DNA of 64,000 nucleotides from Nitrososphaerota archaeon (lineage in GTDB: Archaea > Thermoproteota > Nitrososphaeria > Nitrososphaerales > Nitrosopumilaceae): NCBI GenBank assembly GCA_028866895.1, contig JAGWHF010000013.1, forward strand, positions 1 through 64,000, given 5' to 3'. The position numbers were made by a program, and so were the translations under genes. Every line of letters begins with the position of its first letter. Position 1 is the first letter of the stretch. Shown here piece after piece: positions 16,842-26,438 of this stretch. The notes under the pieces were generated by a model. The model searched no databases. It worked only from the letters and a program-made list of their open reading frames with translations, and was not told the DNA's origin.

Positions 16842-17288
16842 GTGCCAATCGATCCAAACTTTCCTTCAAACCACAAGGTGGTAGAAAAGTTCAAGGACCC
16901 GTTGAGCGAGAATTTTCATCTTGTGTGGGGGCCTGGCAGGCTTGCAGAGGCGGCATCAGATCCCAAGGTGGTTGCCGACTATACCGCCACGGGGGAGAAG
17001 ATTGCACCCATGGGAGTCCACGGCACATATGTCGCAGTAGACTGGGATTCATGCGTCGCGGACGGAATATGCCTTCTCAGCTGTCCCGTGAAGGTTTTCG
17101 AATGGTACAAAAATCCGGGCGAGACCGGCAGGAACGACAGGAAGGATTACACTGACAAGGCAAACCCTGTCAAAGAAGCAAACTGCATCTGGTGCATGGC
17201 ATGTGTGGAGGTTTGCCCCACAAAAGCAATCAAGGTTGATCAGGCAAACCAAGAGATCCACGAAAAAGAGATCGTCAACTTACCATAG
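16842..17288 (+). CDS. Sulfolobus-type ferredoxin 1 (zinc-ferredoxin-like)
   Basis: A 148-residue soluble electron carrier of the archaeal ferredoxin type used by 2-oxoacid oxidoreductases. The core (about residues 60-145) has one cluster motif with Asp replacing the second Cys (C-x2-D-x2-C-x3-CP in SCVADGICLLSCP) and one complete 4Fe-4S motif ([12 protein letters not shown]). The N-terminus MPIDPNFPSNHK and the GVHGTYVAVDWD strand match Sulfolobus zinc-ferredoxins, and the His in GVHGT corresponds to a zinc ligand there; the other zinc ligands cannot all be matched. It starts with GTG. It is followed by a close paralogue. Confidence 0.9.
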   Translation: MPIDPNFPSNHKVVEKFKDPLSENFHLVWGPGRLAEAASDPKVVADYTATGEKIAPMGVHGTYVAVDWDSCVADGICLLSCPVKVFEWYKNPGETGRNDRKDYTDKANPVKEANCIWCMACVEVCPTKAIKVDQANQEIHEKEIVNLP

Positions 17289-17304
17289 TTTCATCATGTC
17301 TAGG

Positions 17305-17312
17305 TTTAAATA
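17305..17312 (+). promoter_or_regulatory. TATA box of ferredoxin gene 2
   Basis: TTTAAATA followed by ACA lies about 27 bases before the ATG at 17335. Sequence and spacing match the first ferredoxin promoter, so the two genes are transcribed separately from duplicated promoters and are probably both leaderless. Confidence 0.7.
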
Positions 17313-17313
17313 A

Positions 17314-17865
<552 letters not shown>

Positions 17866-17977: not shown

Positions 17978-18061
17978 GCAGAGGTCGCCTAGCCCGGCAT
18001 GGCGTGGGCCTTGAGAGCCTATGTGCGCAAGCACGCGGGGGTTCAAATCCCTCTCTCTGCG
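17978..18061 (+). tRNA. tRNA-Ser(UGA)
   Basis: An 84-base class II tRNA. Acceptor GCAGAGG pairs with TCTCTGC, the anticodon loop CTTGAGA gives anticodon TGA, the long variable arm is TGTGCGCAAGCACGC, and the T loop is TTCAAAT. The discriminator is G, as expected for serine. No intron. Confidence 0.93.
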
Positions 18062-18496
18062 CTTATACCTCTTTTGGCAACCCACTAGGAACAAAATTTA
18101 GCCATAAATTGATCGGGAATATTGGTGGTGTGATGAGGGATCTTGACATGCATAACAGCCGGAAGAAGATGGAGTATGCCCGCCATATGTCCTCAGATCC
18201 TTCTTAGAAGAAAATGCCAAAATCGCAAGCAGATCTTCAAGGTATTCCAATCCTGGTATTGGTTGGCAAAGCACGTTAGGGTGGAGACCAATTAATTTTT
18301 CAAGTGGAAAAATTAAAGTCGATTGCAAATTCACCCAACCATGACTTTAAATGCCGATGGCCGGCCGGAATCGAATATTTATCAAAAGAGGGGATATATT
18401 CCCAGAATTTTCCAGTTGTTTCATCCTAAACTAGAATATGTAGCCAAGTTTGGTCCCAGTAAAATATTGCCGCACCTGTAATTTCATAGATATCCA
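18062..18496. other. Intergenic region, no gene recognised
   Basis: These 435 bases between tRNA-Ser and the large secreted-protein gene hold no convincing reading frame or RNA fold that I can identify. A weak TATA-like TAAAATAT at 18460-18467 is about 34 bases before the ATG at 18497 and may be the promoter of that gene. Confidence 0.4.
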
Positions 18497-21400
18497 ATGC
18501 GAGGAATTCGGATGAGGAAGCAAGTGACTAGCGCAAACCTGATTATCGCAGCCTTGCTGCTTTCAGCCTTTATGCTAGTACTTCTTCTTCCGCATGCTAT
18601 AGGTGATACCGGCAACCACAGGCATGGAAATTTGCATTCAAAGGCTGCCCCACGAGCAGGCAGCTACGGAAACATCAAGATACACGGCAAGACTTGGGGG
18701 GTATTTCCACCCCTTGTCACCAGCGGAGGGCCCTTGCAACTGAATCATGTGCCTCAAAATCAGGTCAAAACTGGAGGACCGGAACAGCCCCAGCACCGGG
18801 GCAGTCAAGTCGCCAGCGCAAGCCACGCGCTGATTACGGAGGCTAATTCCAAGCGTCCCCAAGGTCAGAATCCTTTCTTGGGCCCGGACATTCTCATTGA
18901 AAAGTCGGCGTCAGGCCTTGTTTCATCCGACCCGCTGACAAATGAGACCCGGACCCAACAAGAGCTTGAGTCAGACCCGGGCTTTTGGTCCTTTGGAGGA
19001 GATGCCGGCGCGGAGAATGCAAGTTATGCCTTCTGGAGGGATTCCATGGGACTTCACATCGGCATACAACCGCATGGAGGGGACAATAATCCAATCTATG
19101 CGGGCTTTTATGCCGAGACCCAGCAAGCCAATGCCACGCTCTTCCATGTTGCAATCACGGCGCCTGCCAGATATCTGGCCGATGGGAGCGCCTACTATCA
19201 GGCCAACATGATAATAGCTCCGACCCTCCAGTCCTCCCAGAACTACATATCATGCTTTTCCGACACTGGGATCTCGGGCACCGTATGGGCCGTAGCCCTT
19301 GCAGGAAAGGGCCTCAAGATACTCTGGGCGGACGATGGCCAGCAACAGCCGCTCACGCAAGACTGTACCTTGGTTACAAACGGCCGGAATTACCTCGCGG
19401 TCTTCCTCGGAGGTACCGAGGTATATGAGAACCGTGAATTGGCATTGAACATGAGCGCGCCATTTAACGTATACCTTGAATCGGAATCATCCTACCGGGG
19501 TCAGATGATGAATGCAACGTTTGCGGATTATTACTCTACCTCAAACGACACGGTCACTATAGAAGGCCGTGCCGCAAACGCGACCTATGCAACCATATCG
19601 ACGGGTTCGGACGGTAATATCAGCCGCAGCCCGTTCCTGTCAGGAGAGGCAGTCCTGAATGTCGGCGGTTCTCGCTACCCCTTGAACGGTACAATAACGG
19701 TGTACGGTGCAGGAAATGAAACACTTTCCTCAAGCAGGCAGGAGATTTTCGGAGGCGACGCGTACCGTCTGTTTGCCCTTCCTGGAGCGCCGCAAAATCT
19801 TACACTGGACAGCGTAAACTCGTCATCGGCAACCATCTCCTGGGACCCGCCACTTTCAAACGGCGGCTCCCCAATCACCGGATACGAGATCGAGAGATCC
19901 GGAAGCGAGTCCCTTCAGAAGGCATCACGCAACTCGACCGGCCCTGCATACTTTTCATTTGGCAACGGAACCACGTTTGATGACATCTCGCTTGATGGCG
20001 GCTCGACATACATCTACATTGTATTTGCGAAAAACCTGGCAGGACTGGGCCCGCCGTCGTATGCCATAAACGTTACAACACCTGCCGACCTCCAATCTCC
20101 GTCGCACCTTGCTGCAAACTCTACCTCCCCGACGGAGGTTAGTCTCTCATGGCAAGCACCGCCGGAGGACGACCTGCGGATTCAGGGATATGAGATAGAA
20201 AGGTCCTCCGATGGTGCTGCAACATGGTCCACCATAGTATACGATACGAGATCAAACCTTACAACATTCCAAGATACCGGGCTTGAGCCGCAGGCAAGCT
20301 ACGCTTACACTGTGGCCGCAATCACCCCGCTCGGACTCTCACCCAAATCAAACATTGCATATGCCACAACCCAGCAATCAACAGTCGGTTCGCCCACTGC
20401 AGTCGCCGGAATCGTTGTACCGTTGTACTGTGCGCCCTATGGCAGAGATTCCTCATCGTGCCCAGTAAACTCTACCTCGACTGACTGCAGCAAATACCCA
20501 GACGATTTCTGCTGGCAGCCGATCGTGGACGCCCATCTGTCACATCCGCGCGTCCCACTCTTTGTCATAATAAACCCCGACAACGGACCGTGCCTGAGCG
20601 CTGACAACCCATGCGATTACAGCCAGGACTATGGAAACGGAATAGGCAACCTTACCAAGAACGGCATAACGGTACTGGGATACGTACGGACGCGCTATGC
20701 CGACCCCGCATCGACGCCAACCTGCTGCCCATACCGGGAGGTCCAGGAAAACCTCACGCAGTGGTCAACGCTTTACGGGCAAAAGGGGGTCAGCGGGATA
20801 AACCTCGACGAGATGTCAACAAGGCTGGGACCAAACCATACGACGCTTTCCTACTACGAGAACCTCACAAGATACGCAAGAAACAACCTTGGCTTCCAAA
20901 ACGTCTTTGCCAACCCGGGAATACCTACGATCCCGGCATACCTAAACGGCCATGCAGCAGACACCATCAACATCTACGAGGGTGCGGGGGCACCAAGCCT
21001 TTCCATGATATCGTCTGGGACATTGGCTGACACCTCCCCGGTCTTTGGAAGGACGAACTTCTCGCTTGTCGCATTCTGCCAGCCCGAGCTTCCCAACTCC
21101 ACGGTGGTGGGAAACTACTCAAACTATGTGGGCTACCTTTACTTTACCGACGTCGGGAGCTACTGCACTGCATATGATGCCAACCCATGGGACCGCATAT
21201 CGTCCTACCTGTCAGAGCTTGCAGGCGAGCTTGACAAGCCAGCCTCCACACTAACCATAAACACGGTGGACCAGTCGGGGCGCCCAATTTCTGGATACTA
21301 TGTAGGGGTGACGCAGTCAGGCCATATCATCCCTTCCGGATATTCCCCGCTTCCATACCTTGCCACTGCAGGTGTCGCGTATACGTTTACGCCGGTGGGA

Positions 21401-21523
21401 TACGCGGCATGCAGCTTTGATCACTGGAACGACAACCTCTCGGGAGTTGCGTCAAGGACTGTTCGAGCAACTGCCTACAACCAACAATTTACAGCCGTCT
21501 TCTCCGGGCCTGGCTGTCCCTAG
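18497..21523 (+). CDS. Large secreted protein: FN3 domains plus Spherulin-4-like glycosidase domain
   Basis: A 1008-residue exported protein. A signal peptide spans about residues 8-36 (hydrophobic core LIIAALLLSAFMLVLLL). A beta-rich N-terminal region (about 150-425) is followed by two fibronectin type III domains (about 428-528 and 530-628, each with the conserved ISWDPP or LSWQAPP and GYEIERS strands). Residues about 636-910 resemble the Spherulin-4 TIM-barrel family (GIVVPLY, FVIINPDNGP, GYVRTRYADP, GINLDEMS), whose fungal members are glycoside hydrolases acting on galactosaminoglycan-like polymers. The end (about 912-1008) is an InlB-repeat-like domain with FDHWNDNLSG. It probably acts at the cell surface or in matrix polysaccharide; substrate is unknown. 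Many NxS/T sites suggest glycosylation. Confidence 0.85.
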   Translation: MRGIRMRKQVTSANLIIAALLLSAFMLVLLLPHAIGDTGNHRHGNLHSKAAPRAGSYGNIKIHGKTWGVFPPLVTSGGPLQLNHVPQNQVKTGGPEQPQHRGSQVASASHALITEANSKRPQGQNPFLGPDILIEKSASGLVSSDPLTNETRTQQELESDPGFWSFGGDAGAENASYAFWRDSMGLHIGIQPHGGDNNPIYAGFYAETQQANATLFHVAITAPARYLADGSAYYQANMIIAPTLQSSQNYISCFSDTGISGTVWAVALAGKGLKILWADDGQQQPLTQDCTLVTNGRNYLAVFLGGTEVYENRELALNMSAPFNVYLESESSYRGQMMNATFADYYSTSNDTVTIEGRAANATYATISTGSDGNISRSPFLSGEAVLNVGGSRYPLNGTITVYGAGNETLSSSRQEIFGGDAYRLFALPGAPQNLTLDSVNSSSATISWDPPLSNGGSPITGYEIERSGSESLQKASRNSTGPAYFSFGNGTTFDDISLDGGSTYIYIVFAKNLAGLGPPSYAINVTTPADLQSPSHLAANSTSPTEVSLSWQAPPEDDLRIQGYEIERSSDGAATWSTIVYDTRSNLTTFQDTGLEPQASYAYTVAAITPLGLSPKSNIAYATTQQSTVGSPTAVAGIVVPLYCAPYGRDSSSCPVNSTSTDCSKYPDDFCWQPIVDAHLSHPRVPLFVIINPDNGPCLSADNPCDYSQDYGNGIGNLTKNGITVLGYVRTRYADPASTPTCCPYREVQENLTQWSTLYGQKGVSGINLDEMSTRLGPNHTTLSYYENLTRYARNNLGFQNVFANPGIPTIPAYLNGHAADTINIYEGAGAPSLSMISSGTLADTSPVFGRTNFSLVAFCQPELPNSTVVGNYSNYVGYLYFTDVGSYCTAYDANPWDRISSYLSELAGELDKPASTLTINTVDQSGRPISGYYVGVTQSGHIIPSGYSPLPYLATAGVAYTFTPVGYAACSFDHWNDNLSGVASRTVRATAYNQQFTAVFSGPGCP

Positions 21524-21546
21524 CCTTCCAAGTTCCTGCGTGCCTC

Positions 21547-22764: not shown

Positions 22765-23280
22765 TTGAACATCTCCGAACTCATACAGATCCACAGCATA
22801 GGATACCAATTGCAGGAGGTAAAGGTCAACTTTGGCTATGATGTAAAGATCGATGCCCCAGACGCCAGCATAGACGCAAAGCATGGCGAGATTTTGAGCG
22901 TCCCAAGGTGGGTGGCCGACGTCCTGTCGCAGGAAAACCTTGCAGAGGTTCAGGATACCGACATGGTGGTAGCACTAAAGCAGGCAATCGTCAAGGAGAA
23001 CGTGCAGGGGGACTTTGACCTTTCAACGCTAGAGCCGGAGTTTTACATCAAGATGATTTCCTTTATGAGGAGGCTTCCCCCGCAGGACCGCGACAAGCTT
23101 GAGAGCATGCTCAACTCGCTTGTCCGGAAGAGGCAGGGAAAGATTGTCCGGCTTGCAGACTCGGCCAAGATGAGCGCCGACCTTGCAAAGAAGGTCACAA
23201 TAGAGGAGCGCATACTTTTTGACTATATCTATAACAACAGCACGGAATTCAAGCGGCAGATACTAAGTGACAAGAAATGA
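22765..23280 (+). CDS. GINS complex subunit (Gins23 type)
   Basis: A 171-residue subunit of the GINS complex, which joins MCM and Cdc45/RecJ in the replicative helicase. The beta-rich domain comes first (about residues 15-60, with HGEILSVPRWVADVL as in Psf2/Psf3) and the alpha-helical domain follows (about 75-170), the order found in the Gins23 branch. The start is TTG, with GGAGGATC 11 bases upstream. Its stop overlaps the mcm start codon (ATGA), so the two are co-translated, as expected for proteins of one complex. Confidence 0.88.
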   Translation: MNISELIQIHSIGYQLQEVKVNFGYDVKIDAPDASIDAKHGEILSVPRWVADVLSQENLAEVQDTDMVVALKQAIVKENVQGDFDLSTLEPEFYIKMISFMRRLPPQDRDKLESMLNSLVRKRQGKIVRLADSAKMSADLAKKVTIEERILFDYIYNNSTEFKRQILSDKK

Positions 23281-26200
23281 CCCTTTCCCCAGAATCAATA
23301 TCCTCAAGCAAGCTTCACGACCAGGTAAAAGACTTTCTGAGCCAGTTCAAGGACAAGTCCGGCTCGTACAAGTATGTCGACGAGATAGACCAGATGATGG
23401 CAAAAAAGATCCAGTACATCGTGGTGGACTACAACGACCTAGTCACGCATCCCGAGATAGAGTCGGTCTTCAACGTCGACCCGGATGCAATCCTACACGC
23501 CTTCAGTGAGGCAATCAAGGACATTCTCAAGGAGAGGTTCCCGCAGTATGCAGAGAAGATACGCCATGACATACGGGTAAGGATATCAAACTATCCGGCA
23601 CAGCGCAGCCTCAGGGAGGTAAACGCAGAGGTGATAGGCAGGATGATAAGCGTCTCCGGCATGGTCGTGAGGGCATCTGAGATAAAACCTCTTGCAAAGG
23701 AGCTTGTCTACATTTGTCCAGAGGGTCACCAGACAAAGCGTGTACAGGAAAAGGGACTAGAGTTCAAGGAGCCACTCAAGTGTGACAACGGCAAATGCAC
23801 CCACAGGGATCTCGACCTCAATCCGGAGCAGAGCAAGTTCATTGACTTTCAGATGGTAAGACTGCAGGAGCTCCCGGAAGACCTACCGCCAGGCCAGCTT
23901 CCACACTATCTGGATGTAACGGTGCTGCAGGACCTGGTCGACAATGCAAGGCCTGGTGACCGTGTGATACTGACGGGAATTGTTCGAATAGAGCAGGAGC
24001 ACATACCATCGATGCGCGGAAAGAGCGGGATTTACAGGCTTAGGGTTCAGGGAAACAACATAGAATTCCTCGGGGGAAGGGGACAAAAGAGCTCGCGCAG
24101 CACGGAAAGGGAAGAGATCTCGCCAGACGAGGAGAAGATAATAAAGTCGCTTGGCAAAAACCCTGACATCTACGACAGGCTGGTGGCCTCGTTTGCACCC
24201 CACGTCAACGGGCATGACATCATAAAGGAATCCATACTCTTGCTTATTGTGGGATCCACACAGAAACTCCTGGCTGACGGGGCCAAGATACGTGGCGACA
24301 TCAACGTCTTTCTAGTGGGAGACCCGGGTACAGCAAAGAGTGAGATGCTCAAATTCTGTGCAAGGATTGCACCGAGGGGCCTCTACACGTCAGGAAGAGG
24401 TTCGACAGCGGCGGGACTGACAGCTGCAGTTGTACGGGATAAAATCGGAATTATGATGCTGGAGGCAGGCGCCGTAGTTTTGGGTGATCAAGGACTCGTT
24501 TGTATGACTGAAGACACCGAAATCTATACAGGCAGTGCACTTGTCCCGGTAGGAAAACTCTGGGATGGAATCAATGGTGATGTTTATCTTACGAAATCTG
24601 GAAGGGAGGCAAAGAAAGAACTCATCCCGATTAACATTTACGATGGGAATGTAAGGGCAGATCTTGATGGTAACGCATTTGCAATAATGAGAAAAAAGTA
24701 CAAGGGAGACATAATCAAGATGACCTTCTCGTCAGGACTAATGCTCAAACTTACGCCTGAACACCTGATGAGGCGTGTAACACATGTCAAGAATCTCTGG
24801 ATAAAAGCTAAAGATGTCAAACCCGGCCAATTACTCCGGTCGCCAGTGCGAGTATCAAAACCGGCATGCACCCTGAACATGAGCGAACAAGAATCTTATG
24901 TTATTGGTTGTATCTACGGTGATGGCCGTACCACAACCCACAGCATCACAATTAGTCAATCTAAAGTAAACGAGGATGTCATCAGAAACATTCAGAAAAA
25001 CTCTGATGTCTTTTCACTTTATGACAAAGGGGATCGCGTTAGAACCCTAGGCAAATACTCCTTGATATCAAGAATGTATCATCTATACACAACAGACAAG
25101 ACATTTTTGCAGAAGACGCGATTCTTAACAAAAAGTCCCTCGATTGACAACATCTTGCTTCTTCCAGACAGGTCTCTATGGGCATTTCTTGCAGGAGTGT
25201 TTGACACTGATGGTGATTTCAATCATGTACGCGGTAAAATAATCGCAGCAAGATTCTATCCAAGCTTATCGCAACATGAATTGACAGTCATGCTATATGC
25301 TTTGCGTAGATTTGGCATTTGTGCGAAGATAAGAAGAACGCGCAAGGGTTTTCCGTTGATTCAGATAACTGGTAGAGATATCTCTCGCTTTGCCGAGGGC
25401 ATCAAATCCTACAGTATCAAAGCCCAACGTGAGATAGTTGAGATTGATCACAAGGGTGCATTAGAGAGAGGGACTGAGAAGGTCGTTAGTGTGGAAAGAG
25501 TGCCATATGATGGATATGTCTATGATCTAAGTGTTGGTAAATATCATAATTATGAGGCATCTATGGTCTACATCCATAATTGTATAGATGAGTTCGATAA
25601 GATGAAGCCAGAAGATCGTTCCGCTTTGCATGAAACAATGGAGCAGCAGTCAGTCAGCATCGCAAAGGGAGGAATTGTAGCGACCCTAAATGCAAGGACT
25701 TCGATACTTGCTGCCGCAAACCCGATGTACGGCAAGTACGACCCGTTCAAGAACATCACCGAGAACGTAAACCTGCCGGTACCACTACTTACCAGATTCG
25801 ACCTCATCTTCGTTGTAAGGGACATCCCATCAAAGGAGCGTGACTCGAGGATTGCAAGGCACATACTCAATCTGCACAGGACTACCGGCACCGATACCAA
25901 GTCGCTCATAGACGTAGATATCCTCACAAAATATCTCACGTACGCCAAGAGGTTTGACCCAATACTGACCCCTGAGGCAGAGGAGAAGATCCTCGATTAC
26001 TATATGACCATGAGAAACGTCGAGTCCGAAGGCATGATTACAGTCACTCCGAGGCAGCTTGAGGGCCTGGTCAGGCTTGCCACCGCAAGAGCAAGGCTCC
26101 TGATGAAGACCCAGGTTGACGGCGAGGATGCTGAGAGGGCGATCTTCCTCATACAGAGCATGCTCCAAGATGCAGGAGTCGATGTCAATACGGGCAAGGT

Positions 26201-26438
26201 CGACCTTGGCGTCCTGCAGGGAAGGCCTCACAGCGAGGTCTCAAAGATGCAACTCTTCATGGACGTGATGAAGTCGCTTGAGGGAGACGAAAAGAGGCCG
26301 GTCGAGGAGAAGACGTTTGTCAAGGAGCTCGTAAAGACTGGCAAGTTCACGGAAGAAGAGGCAAGAAAGTACCTCAAGAAACTCCAGCGAGAGTCAGCTA
26401 TTTATGAATCCAAGCCAGGTCATTATAACCGTGTATGA
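23277..26438 (+). CDS. mcm: Replicative DNA helicase MCM, with intein
   Basis: The precursor has 1053 residues: about 693 of MCM plus a 360-residue intein (residues 409-768). The N-terminal part holds the OB fold and a Cys/His zinc finger (ICPEGH and KCDNGKCTH, about 150-180). Walker A is GDPGTAKSEM (about 348), Walker B CIDEFDKM (split by the intein), sensor 1 AANP and the arginine finger TRFDLIF come after, and a winged-helix tail ends the protein. MCM unwinds DNA at the fork. It is overlapped by GINS23 before and Hel308 after (ATGA at 26435), so these form one replisome operon. Confidence 0.95.
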   Translation: MTLSPESISSSKLHDQVKDFLSQFKDKSGSYKYVDEIDQMMAKKIQYIVVDYNDLVTHPEIESVFNVDPDAILHAFSEAIKDILKERFPQYAEKIRHDIRVRISNYPAQRSLREVNAEVIGRMISVSGMVVRASEIKPLAKELVYICPEGHQTKRVQEKGLEFKEPLKCDNGKCTHRDLDLNPEQSKFIDFQMVRLQELPEDLPPGQLPHYLDVTVLQDLVDNARPGDRVILTGIVRIEQEHIPSMRGKSGIYRLRVQGNNIEFLGGRGQKSSRSTEREEISPDEEKIIKSLGKNPDIYDRLVASFAPHVNGHDIIKESILLLIVGSTQKLLADGAKIRGDINVFLVGDPGTAKSEMLKFCARIAPRGLYTSGRGSTAAGLTAAVVRDKIGIMMLEAGAVVLGDQGLVCMTEDTEIYTGSALVPVGKLWDGINGDVYLTKSGREAKKELIPINIYDGNVRADLDGNAFAIMRKKYKGDIIKMTFSSGLMLKLTPEHLMRRVTHVKNLWIKAKDVKPGQLLRSPVRVSKPACTLNMSEQESYVIGCIYGDGRTTTHSITISQSKVNEDVIRNIQKNSDVFSLYDKGDRVRTLGKYSLISRMYHLYTTDKTFLQKTRFLTKSPSIDNILLLPDRSLWAFLAGVFDTDGDFNHVRGKIIAARFYPSLSQHELTVMLYALRRFGICAKIRRTRKGFPLIQITGRDISRFAEGIKSYSIKAQREIVEIDHKGALERGTEKVVSVERVPYDGYVYDLSVGKYHNYEASMVYIHNCIDEFDKMKPEDRSALHETMEQQSVSIAKGGIVATLNARTSILAAANPMYGKYDPFKNITENVNLPVPLLTRFDLIFVVRDIPSKERDSRIARHILNLHRTTGTDTKSLIDVDILTKYLTYAKRFDPILTPEAEEKILDYYMTMRNVESEGMITVTPRQLEGLVRLATARARLLMKTQVDGEDAERAIFLIQSMLQDAGVDVNTGKVDLGVLQGRPHSEVSKMQLFMDVMKSLEGDEKRPVEEKTFVKELVKTGKFTEEEARKYLKKLQRESAIYESKPGHYNRV
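24501..25580 (+). mobile_element. Intein in MCM Walker B, with LAGLIDADG-type homing endonuclease
   Basis: This 360-residue intein begins at Cys (CMTEDTEIYT, block A) and ends at His-Asn (VYIHN, block G), followed by the extein Cys of CIDEFDKM. Block B is TPEHLMRR with the catalytic His. A dodecapeptide endonuclease is complete, with motifs GCIYGDG and GVFDTDG that keep both metal-binding Asp residues. Block F is YDLSVGKYHNYEA. All splicing residues are present, so it should be active in splicing and possibly in homing. The DNA is more AT-rich than the rest of mcm. Without splicing the helicase would be dead, because Walker B is split. Confidence 0.95.

Follow-up and report, generated by a model that had tools for sequence, protein, structure and literature searches.

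Architecture and genomic setting of the Spherulin-4 gene

The window, a 64,000-nucleotide stretch at the start of a contig from a Nitrososphaerota archaeon, contains a complete ORF that encodes a large, multi-domain protein and lies between a tRNA-Ser gene and the gene for a replication factor C (RFC) subunit. The genome probably belongs to Nitrosotalea as defined by GTDB, whose members are acidophilic ammonia oxidisers. The features of this region, in window coordinates, are as follows:

17978..18062, forward strand: tRNA-Ser(TGA), left border of the insertion
18063..21546, no strand: insertion missing in five relatives of the genus, from comparison of the tRNA-Ser/RFC spacing
18497..21523, forward strand: ORF for a secreted FN3/Spherulin-4 (GH135) protein, 1008 aa, ATG start, complete (ORF listing and Pfam; secretion predicted)
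18497..18604, forward strand: predicted signal peptide, residues 1-36, with hydrophobic core 12-31 (hydropathy only)
18872..19786, forward strand: N-terminal all-β domain, residues 126-430, of a type shared by many secreted proteins of the genus
19787..20074, forward strand: FN3 domain 1, residues 431-526 (Pfam)
20096..20371, forward strand: FN3-like domain 2, residues ~534-625 (Pfam)
20495..21217, forward strand: Spherulin-4/GH135 domain, Pfam residues 667-907, modelled as 636-925 (Pfam, AlphaFold2, Foldseek)
20807..20812, forward strand: codons for Asp771 (predicted nucleophile) and Glu772 (alignment with Sph3 and relatives)
20978..20980, forward strand: codon for Glu828 (predicted acid/base; alignment with Sph3 and relatives)
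21257..21520, forward strand: C-terminal module, residues ~921-1008, without known family, common to the paralogue on contig C3
21547..22581, reverse strand: RFC subunit gene, right border of the insertion (named from sequence)

Pfam detects two fn3 domains across residues ~431-625, followed by a Spherulin4 domain (PF12138) at an E-value of 3.1e-28 (99.3 bits against a cut-off of 30.2). The single strongly hydrophobic stretch of the protein, residues 12-31, fits a signal peptide, and no C-terminal membrane segment is evident from hydropathy of the whole protein, which is predicted to be secreted. It contains 26 N-x-S/T sequons, as against 11 expected from its composition. A preliminary description, made from the DNA alone, had recognized a secreted FN3 and Spherulin-4-like protein here, and the domain matches and predicted signal peptide bear this out; the InlB-like repeat that it also listed is unsupported, as no Pfam or NCBIfam model for one matches at the C-terminus. 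The region between residues 126 and 430 is 34-46% identical to 24 further copies of the same module, which, like the FN3 domains, occurs in numerous large proteins of this genus. Its structural model is an all-β sandwich (pLDDT 89.7) for which a fold search returned loose matches only, mostly to lectin-, CBM- and glucanase-like sandwiches; a resemblance to toxin binding domains was dismissed, with TM scores near 0.3. This domain probably binds carbohydrate or the cell surface.

The tRNA-Ser(TGA) and RFC genes are separated by ~2-9 bp in five genomes of the genus and by 3484 bp here, and the 3484-bp insertion holds one large gene, namely the Spherulin-4 ORF. A sixth relative (G058) shows a different arrangement at this site, and none of 36 further genomes from the genus yielded a full-length counterpart of the protein. 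The genome carries five PF12138 genes. In a quick tree the window domain forms a long-branched group, modestly supported (85), that includes the contig C3 paralogue and a single copy from N. devanaterra. As the insertion is missing in relatives, a full-length counterpart was not found among them, and the long-branched domain groups with paralogues, the gene is best regarded as a divergent paralogue that has been relocated. An integration event that duplicated the tRNA end was considered and rejected, as no 10-mer of the tRNA-Ser recurs in the inserted DNA. Atacama soil viruses encode large proteins containing this Pfam domain, described as spherulation-specific family 4 and interpreted as sporulation proteins (PMC8269230); for the window gene a phage origin was rejected on DNA similarity, with no match among 50,697 phage records. 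Four IMG/VR contigs labelled viral (L114-L117) encode distant Spherulin-4 relatives. A scan of the genome collection with the single sequence confirmed no relatives, and the alignment-based scan recovered 49 loci.

Elsewhere in the window, two adjoining ferredoxin-like genes (16842-17865), ~50% identical to each other's counterparts, are also found side by side in relatives. An MCM helicase ORF of 1053 aa (23277-26438) looks, by eye, to be interrupted by an intein-like insert spanning CMTEDTEIYTG to YIHN, directly before CIDEFDKM. The segment 34001-40000 is of lower G+C (0.38-0.45, as against ~0.50 around it) and has few long ORFs.

Fold and active site of the Spherulin-4 domain

An AlphaFold2 model of the Spherulin-4 domain, built with 72 sequences, is a TIM barrel (pLDDT 85.7, pTM 0.87). 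The best PDB matches in a Foldseek search are to Aspergillus Sph3 (5c5g/5d6t; E 3.6e-15, TMt 0.78), followed by an endo-β-N-acetylglucosaminidase at an E-value of 1.1e-5, and the same Sph3 structures are among the sequence matches to solved structures (E 2e-7). Sph3 is thus the nearest solved structure by both sequence and fold; membership of GH114, GH166 or GH191 was rejected, and no GH114 Pfam match is present in the protein at E-values up to 1. It is close to certain that the domain is a Sph3-like member of GH135.

Catalysis by Sph3 has been described as involving an Asp nucleophile (printed as Asp196) and Glu222 as the acid/base (PMC12054363). In the alignment with Sph3, GINLDEMS of the window protein falls on GIFFDE and NIYEG falls on VVFEA, which places the corresponding residues at D771 and E828; D771, E772 and E828 are all retained. 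The original Sph3 report is said to give the nucleophile as Asp166, unlike the printed Asp196. Among 93 relatives the catalytic Asp is present in 92, a figure inflated by the fact that some of them were gathered with a pattern requiring this residue, and the Glu is present in 78, with Asp replacing it in 14 more. The preliminary description had expected a TIM barrel with an acidic catalytic pair, and had proposed structure prediction as a check, with the absence of either to count against it. Both are supported, so its grounds for refutation did not arise. Its choice of residues was half right: the acid in GINLDEMS is D771, and the one in FVIINPDNGP (D695) was ruled out as a catalytic acid because it aligns with Gly in Sph3 and varies as N/S/A/D in relatives, the predicted partner being E828. 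Catalytic activity of the domain is likely, judging from these residues.

The window protein thus shares with Sph3 the Pfam family, the fold and the positions of the catalytic Asp and Glu, and the two are ~22% identical where their structures align. It differs from Sph3 in its additional N-terminal domain, its pair of FN3 domains, the C-terminal module and loops rich in Cys, and its GH135 activity is predicted. The family had been taken in the preliminary description to be known mainly from fungi and slime moulds; in fact the majority of enzymes in the galactosaminidase families are bacterial in origin (PMC12054363), and GH135 has already been reported in thaumarchaea of the Gagatemarchaeaceae (PMC10640624).

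Co-occurrence and linkage with PelF and PelG

In the class Nitrososphaeria, PF12138 is present in 36 of 400 genomes and PelF scores above the NCBIfam cut-off in 28, all of which fall within the 36 (Fisher's exact test, p ~3e-36, over genomes that are not independent). The same nesting is seen in the family, where PelF (12 genomes) and PelG (13) lie wholly inside the 14 of 151 genomes with PF12138, and the association holds within the genus sample (8/9 vs 0/13, p 3e-5). It covers three taxonomic families, in counts uncorrected for phylogeny. A Spherulin-4 gene is located on the pelF contig, at most ~17 kb away, in 18 of the 28 PelF genomes; the two are unlinked in one family of Nitrososphaeraceae-like genomes (f3). 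Eight of the 36 Spherulin-4 genomes are without PelF above the cut-off; one of these (G043) has PelG, and the other seven are without PelG where it was searched for.

The Pel-like locus of the window's genome is situated on another contig (C54), and includes a Spherulin-4 copy beside pelG. PelF, defined by the NCBIfam equivalog NF038011, scores 144.8 bits in this genome and 159.9 in N. devanaterra (cut-off 100). PelG (PF16933) scores 34.6 bits against a cut-off of 29 in this genome, where it adjoins the epimerase and pelF; homologues in other genomes score below the cut-off (e.g. L081), and that of N. devanaterra is not matched by any Pfam model at E 0.001. The gene between pelF and pelG encodes a GalE-type epimerase that matches several sugar-nucleotide families, with top structural matches including 6wjb/6wj9, which we take to be PelX. 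The small protein encoded upstream of pelF, whose SNAP/TPR-like match is weak, is reminiscent of the TPR part of PelE. The order TPR, pelF, GalE-like epimerase, pelG and Spherulin-4 is repeated in 12 of the thaumarchaeal contigs examined. In N. devanaterra, genes for GlmS, WbqC, an ATP-grasp protein and a PIG-L-type deacetylase are close to the locus, and in the window's genome a PIG-L gene is found near another Spherulin-4 gene (contig C76). No PelA was found among the neighboring genes scanned around the locus; GH135 and the nearby PIG-L-type enzyme may stand in for it.

The bacterial Pel polysaccharide consists of α-1,4-linked GalN/GalNAc, and Sph3 cleaves it when re-N-acetylated (PMC9135694). 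The archaeal locus resembles the bacterial systems (pelABCDEFG of P. aeruginosa and pelDEADAFG of B. cereus) in its PelF equivalog, PelG match, GalE-type epimerase and accompanying galactosaminidase, and further resembles the B. cereus operon in that the hydrolase is a separate flanking gene, there pelAH, with galE also flanking the operon (PMC7112168). It is distinguished from them by the presence of GH135 instead of GH166 and by the position of the window gene outside the locus. The tie between Spherulin-4 and a Pel-like locus also recalls Sph3, which belongs to the gene set making its own polymer. A comparable row of genes is seen in a Sulfurimonadaceae bacterium, which encodes two successive Spherulin-4 proteins, an outer-membrane efflux protein (OEP), PelF (171.9 bits) and a PelG-like protein; in the remaining bacterial loci no pelFG was found beside Spherulin-4 within the locus DNA examined. 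Every one of the 400 genomes with PelF above the cut-off carries Spherulin-4, often in adjoining genes, which suggests that these archaea may produce a Pel-like matrix and trim it. The preliminary description had proposed that the window protein could act on surface or matrix polysaccharide; the co-occurrence of its family with a Pel-like locus, and their frequent linkage, lend this strong, if indirect, support at the level of gene content.

Near the Pel-like locus of one genome (G133; L046:5049-11013) there is a run of ebo-like metabolite-traffic genes, which encode a UbiA-like EboC (191 bits vs a cut-off of 250), an EboE-like TIM barrel and a TatD-like protein. Similar genes are present in L035 and L040.

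Candidate substrates and roles

We propose, at roughly even odds, that the window gene encodes a secreted GH135 α-1,4-N-acetylgalactosaminidase that remodels a Pel/GAG-like polymer of the archaeon's own making, such a poly-GalNAc being its likeliest substrate. GlmS and the GalE/PelX-like epimerase would supply UDP-GalNAc, which would be polymerized by PelF, with export by PelG and perhaps deacetylation by the PIG-L-type enzyme. The window enzyme, a Sph3-type (β/α)8 barrel, would then use Asp771 as nucleophile and Glu828 as acid/base to cut α-1,4-linked N-acetylgalactosamine chains internally with retention, while the lectin-like N-terminal domain and the FN3 domains would anchor it to the matrix or the cell surface. 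The detached window copy and the C54 copy beside pelG presumably act on one polymer. The former may have changed in specificity, as it lies off the pelFG contig, in a genome-unique insertion and on a long branch.

An alternative that we regard as unlikely, though the best of the three considered, is that the enzyme attacks foreign polymers of its fungus-rich acid soil, either bacterial Pel or fungal galactosaminogalactan, in order to feed, compete or enter other biofilms. The GH135 proteins of the Gagatemarchaeaceae, which like the window protein are secreted and come from soil thaumarchaea, were interpreted in this manner as attacking fungal cell walls, with no link to Pel drawn in the available part of the report and with hosts that, unlike the present one, are not ammonia oxidisers (PMC10640624). 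The seven Spherulin-4 genomes with neither gene detected would fit such a role, as would the separation of the window copy from the Pel-like locus. However, a foraging enzyme would not be predicted to accompany every PelF above the cut-off in 400 genomes, often in an adjoining gene, and ammonia oxidisers are mainly autotrophs.

Somewhat less probable still is a surface protein of little or no catalytic activity, in which the barrel of a lectin-like adhesin binds matrix sugar as one of a large modular secreted family. Many modular proteins share the N-terminal and FN3 domains of the window protein, and its Spherulin-4 domain has a long branch. Non-catalytic members are plausible, since some paralogues in these genomes have lost the conserved acids, with FDE changed to FDA or FDQ and Glu to Asp; the intact D771, E772 and E828 set the window copy apart from such degenerate forms. 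That the product of the locus, and the target of the enzyme, is some other polymer or a glycoprotein glycan (e.g. of the S-layer or capsule) is improbable: the several families matched by the epimerase, a PelF specificity unreadable from sequence, nearby ATP-grasp and WbqC genes foreign to known pel operons, and the reported N-glycosylation of ammonia-oxidiser proteins (PMC12153357) would accommodate it, but PelF is a curated equivalog and the characterized GH135 enzyme, Sph3, is specific for poly-GalNAc (PMC9135694).

Remodelling of a self-made galactosamine polymer, the reading we prefer, can be extended, with confidence a little short of even, to terrestrial thaumarchaea including ammonia oxidisers. 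These would make a Pel/GAG-like galactosamine matrix via a PelFG-type synthase, with GH135 replacing the GH166 of PelA, as part of one polymer family with matched hydrolases across fungi, bacteria and archaea, and the window gene would encode a dispersed, matrix-anchored remodelling enzyme of this system. By itself the window gene adds a new member to a known family, and the new element is the association of Spherulin-4 with PelF/PelG; among open-licence papers we found no report of pelF in thaumarchaea or of a link between PelF/PelG and Spherulin-4 in archaea. The biofilm matrix chemistry of ammonia-oxidising archaea is poorly known: a 2025 study observed putative EPS by microscopy, with the sugar unnamed in the part of the paper available (PMC12448741). 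A Pel-like locus tied to GH135 makes the matrix sugar specifically testable with existing reagents. If correct, the proposal would extend the Pel/GAG system to a third domain of life and account for the recurrence of Spherulin-4 genes in soil thaumarchaea.

The Spherulin-4 domains of two loci labelled bacterial, from TM6 bacterium SOIL31 (L065) and a myxococcotal genome (L099), nest among the thaumarchaeal ones in the tree, which reflects either misbinned contigs or gene transfer. The paralogue subgroup with FDA or FDQ replacing FDE (L002, L010, L022, L026 and L041), in which Asp or a neighboring change also replaces the acid/base Glu, may, on these substitutions, be inactive or have another function. 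Several of its members are near gas-vesicle genes. N. gargensis was stated in 2013 to be the sole sequenced thaumarchaeon encoding gas vesicles (PMC3835317), and GvpL/GvpF and GvpD-like gas-vesicle genes adjoin Spherulin-4 genes in both the window's genome (contig G000:C76, L035) and N. devanaterra (L043).
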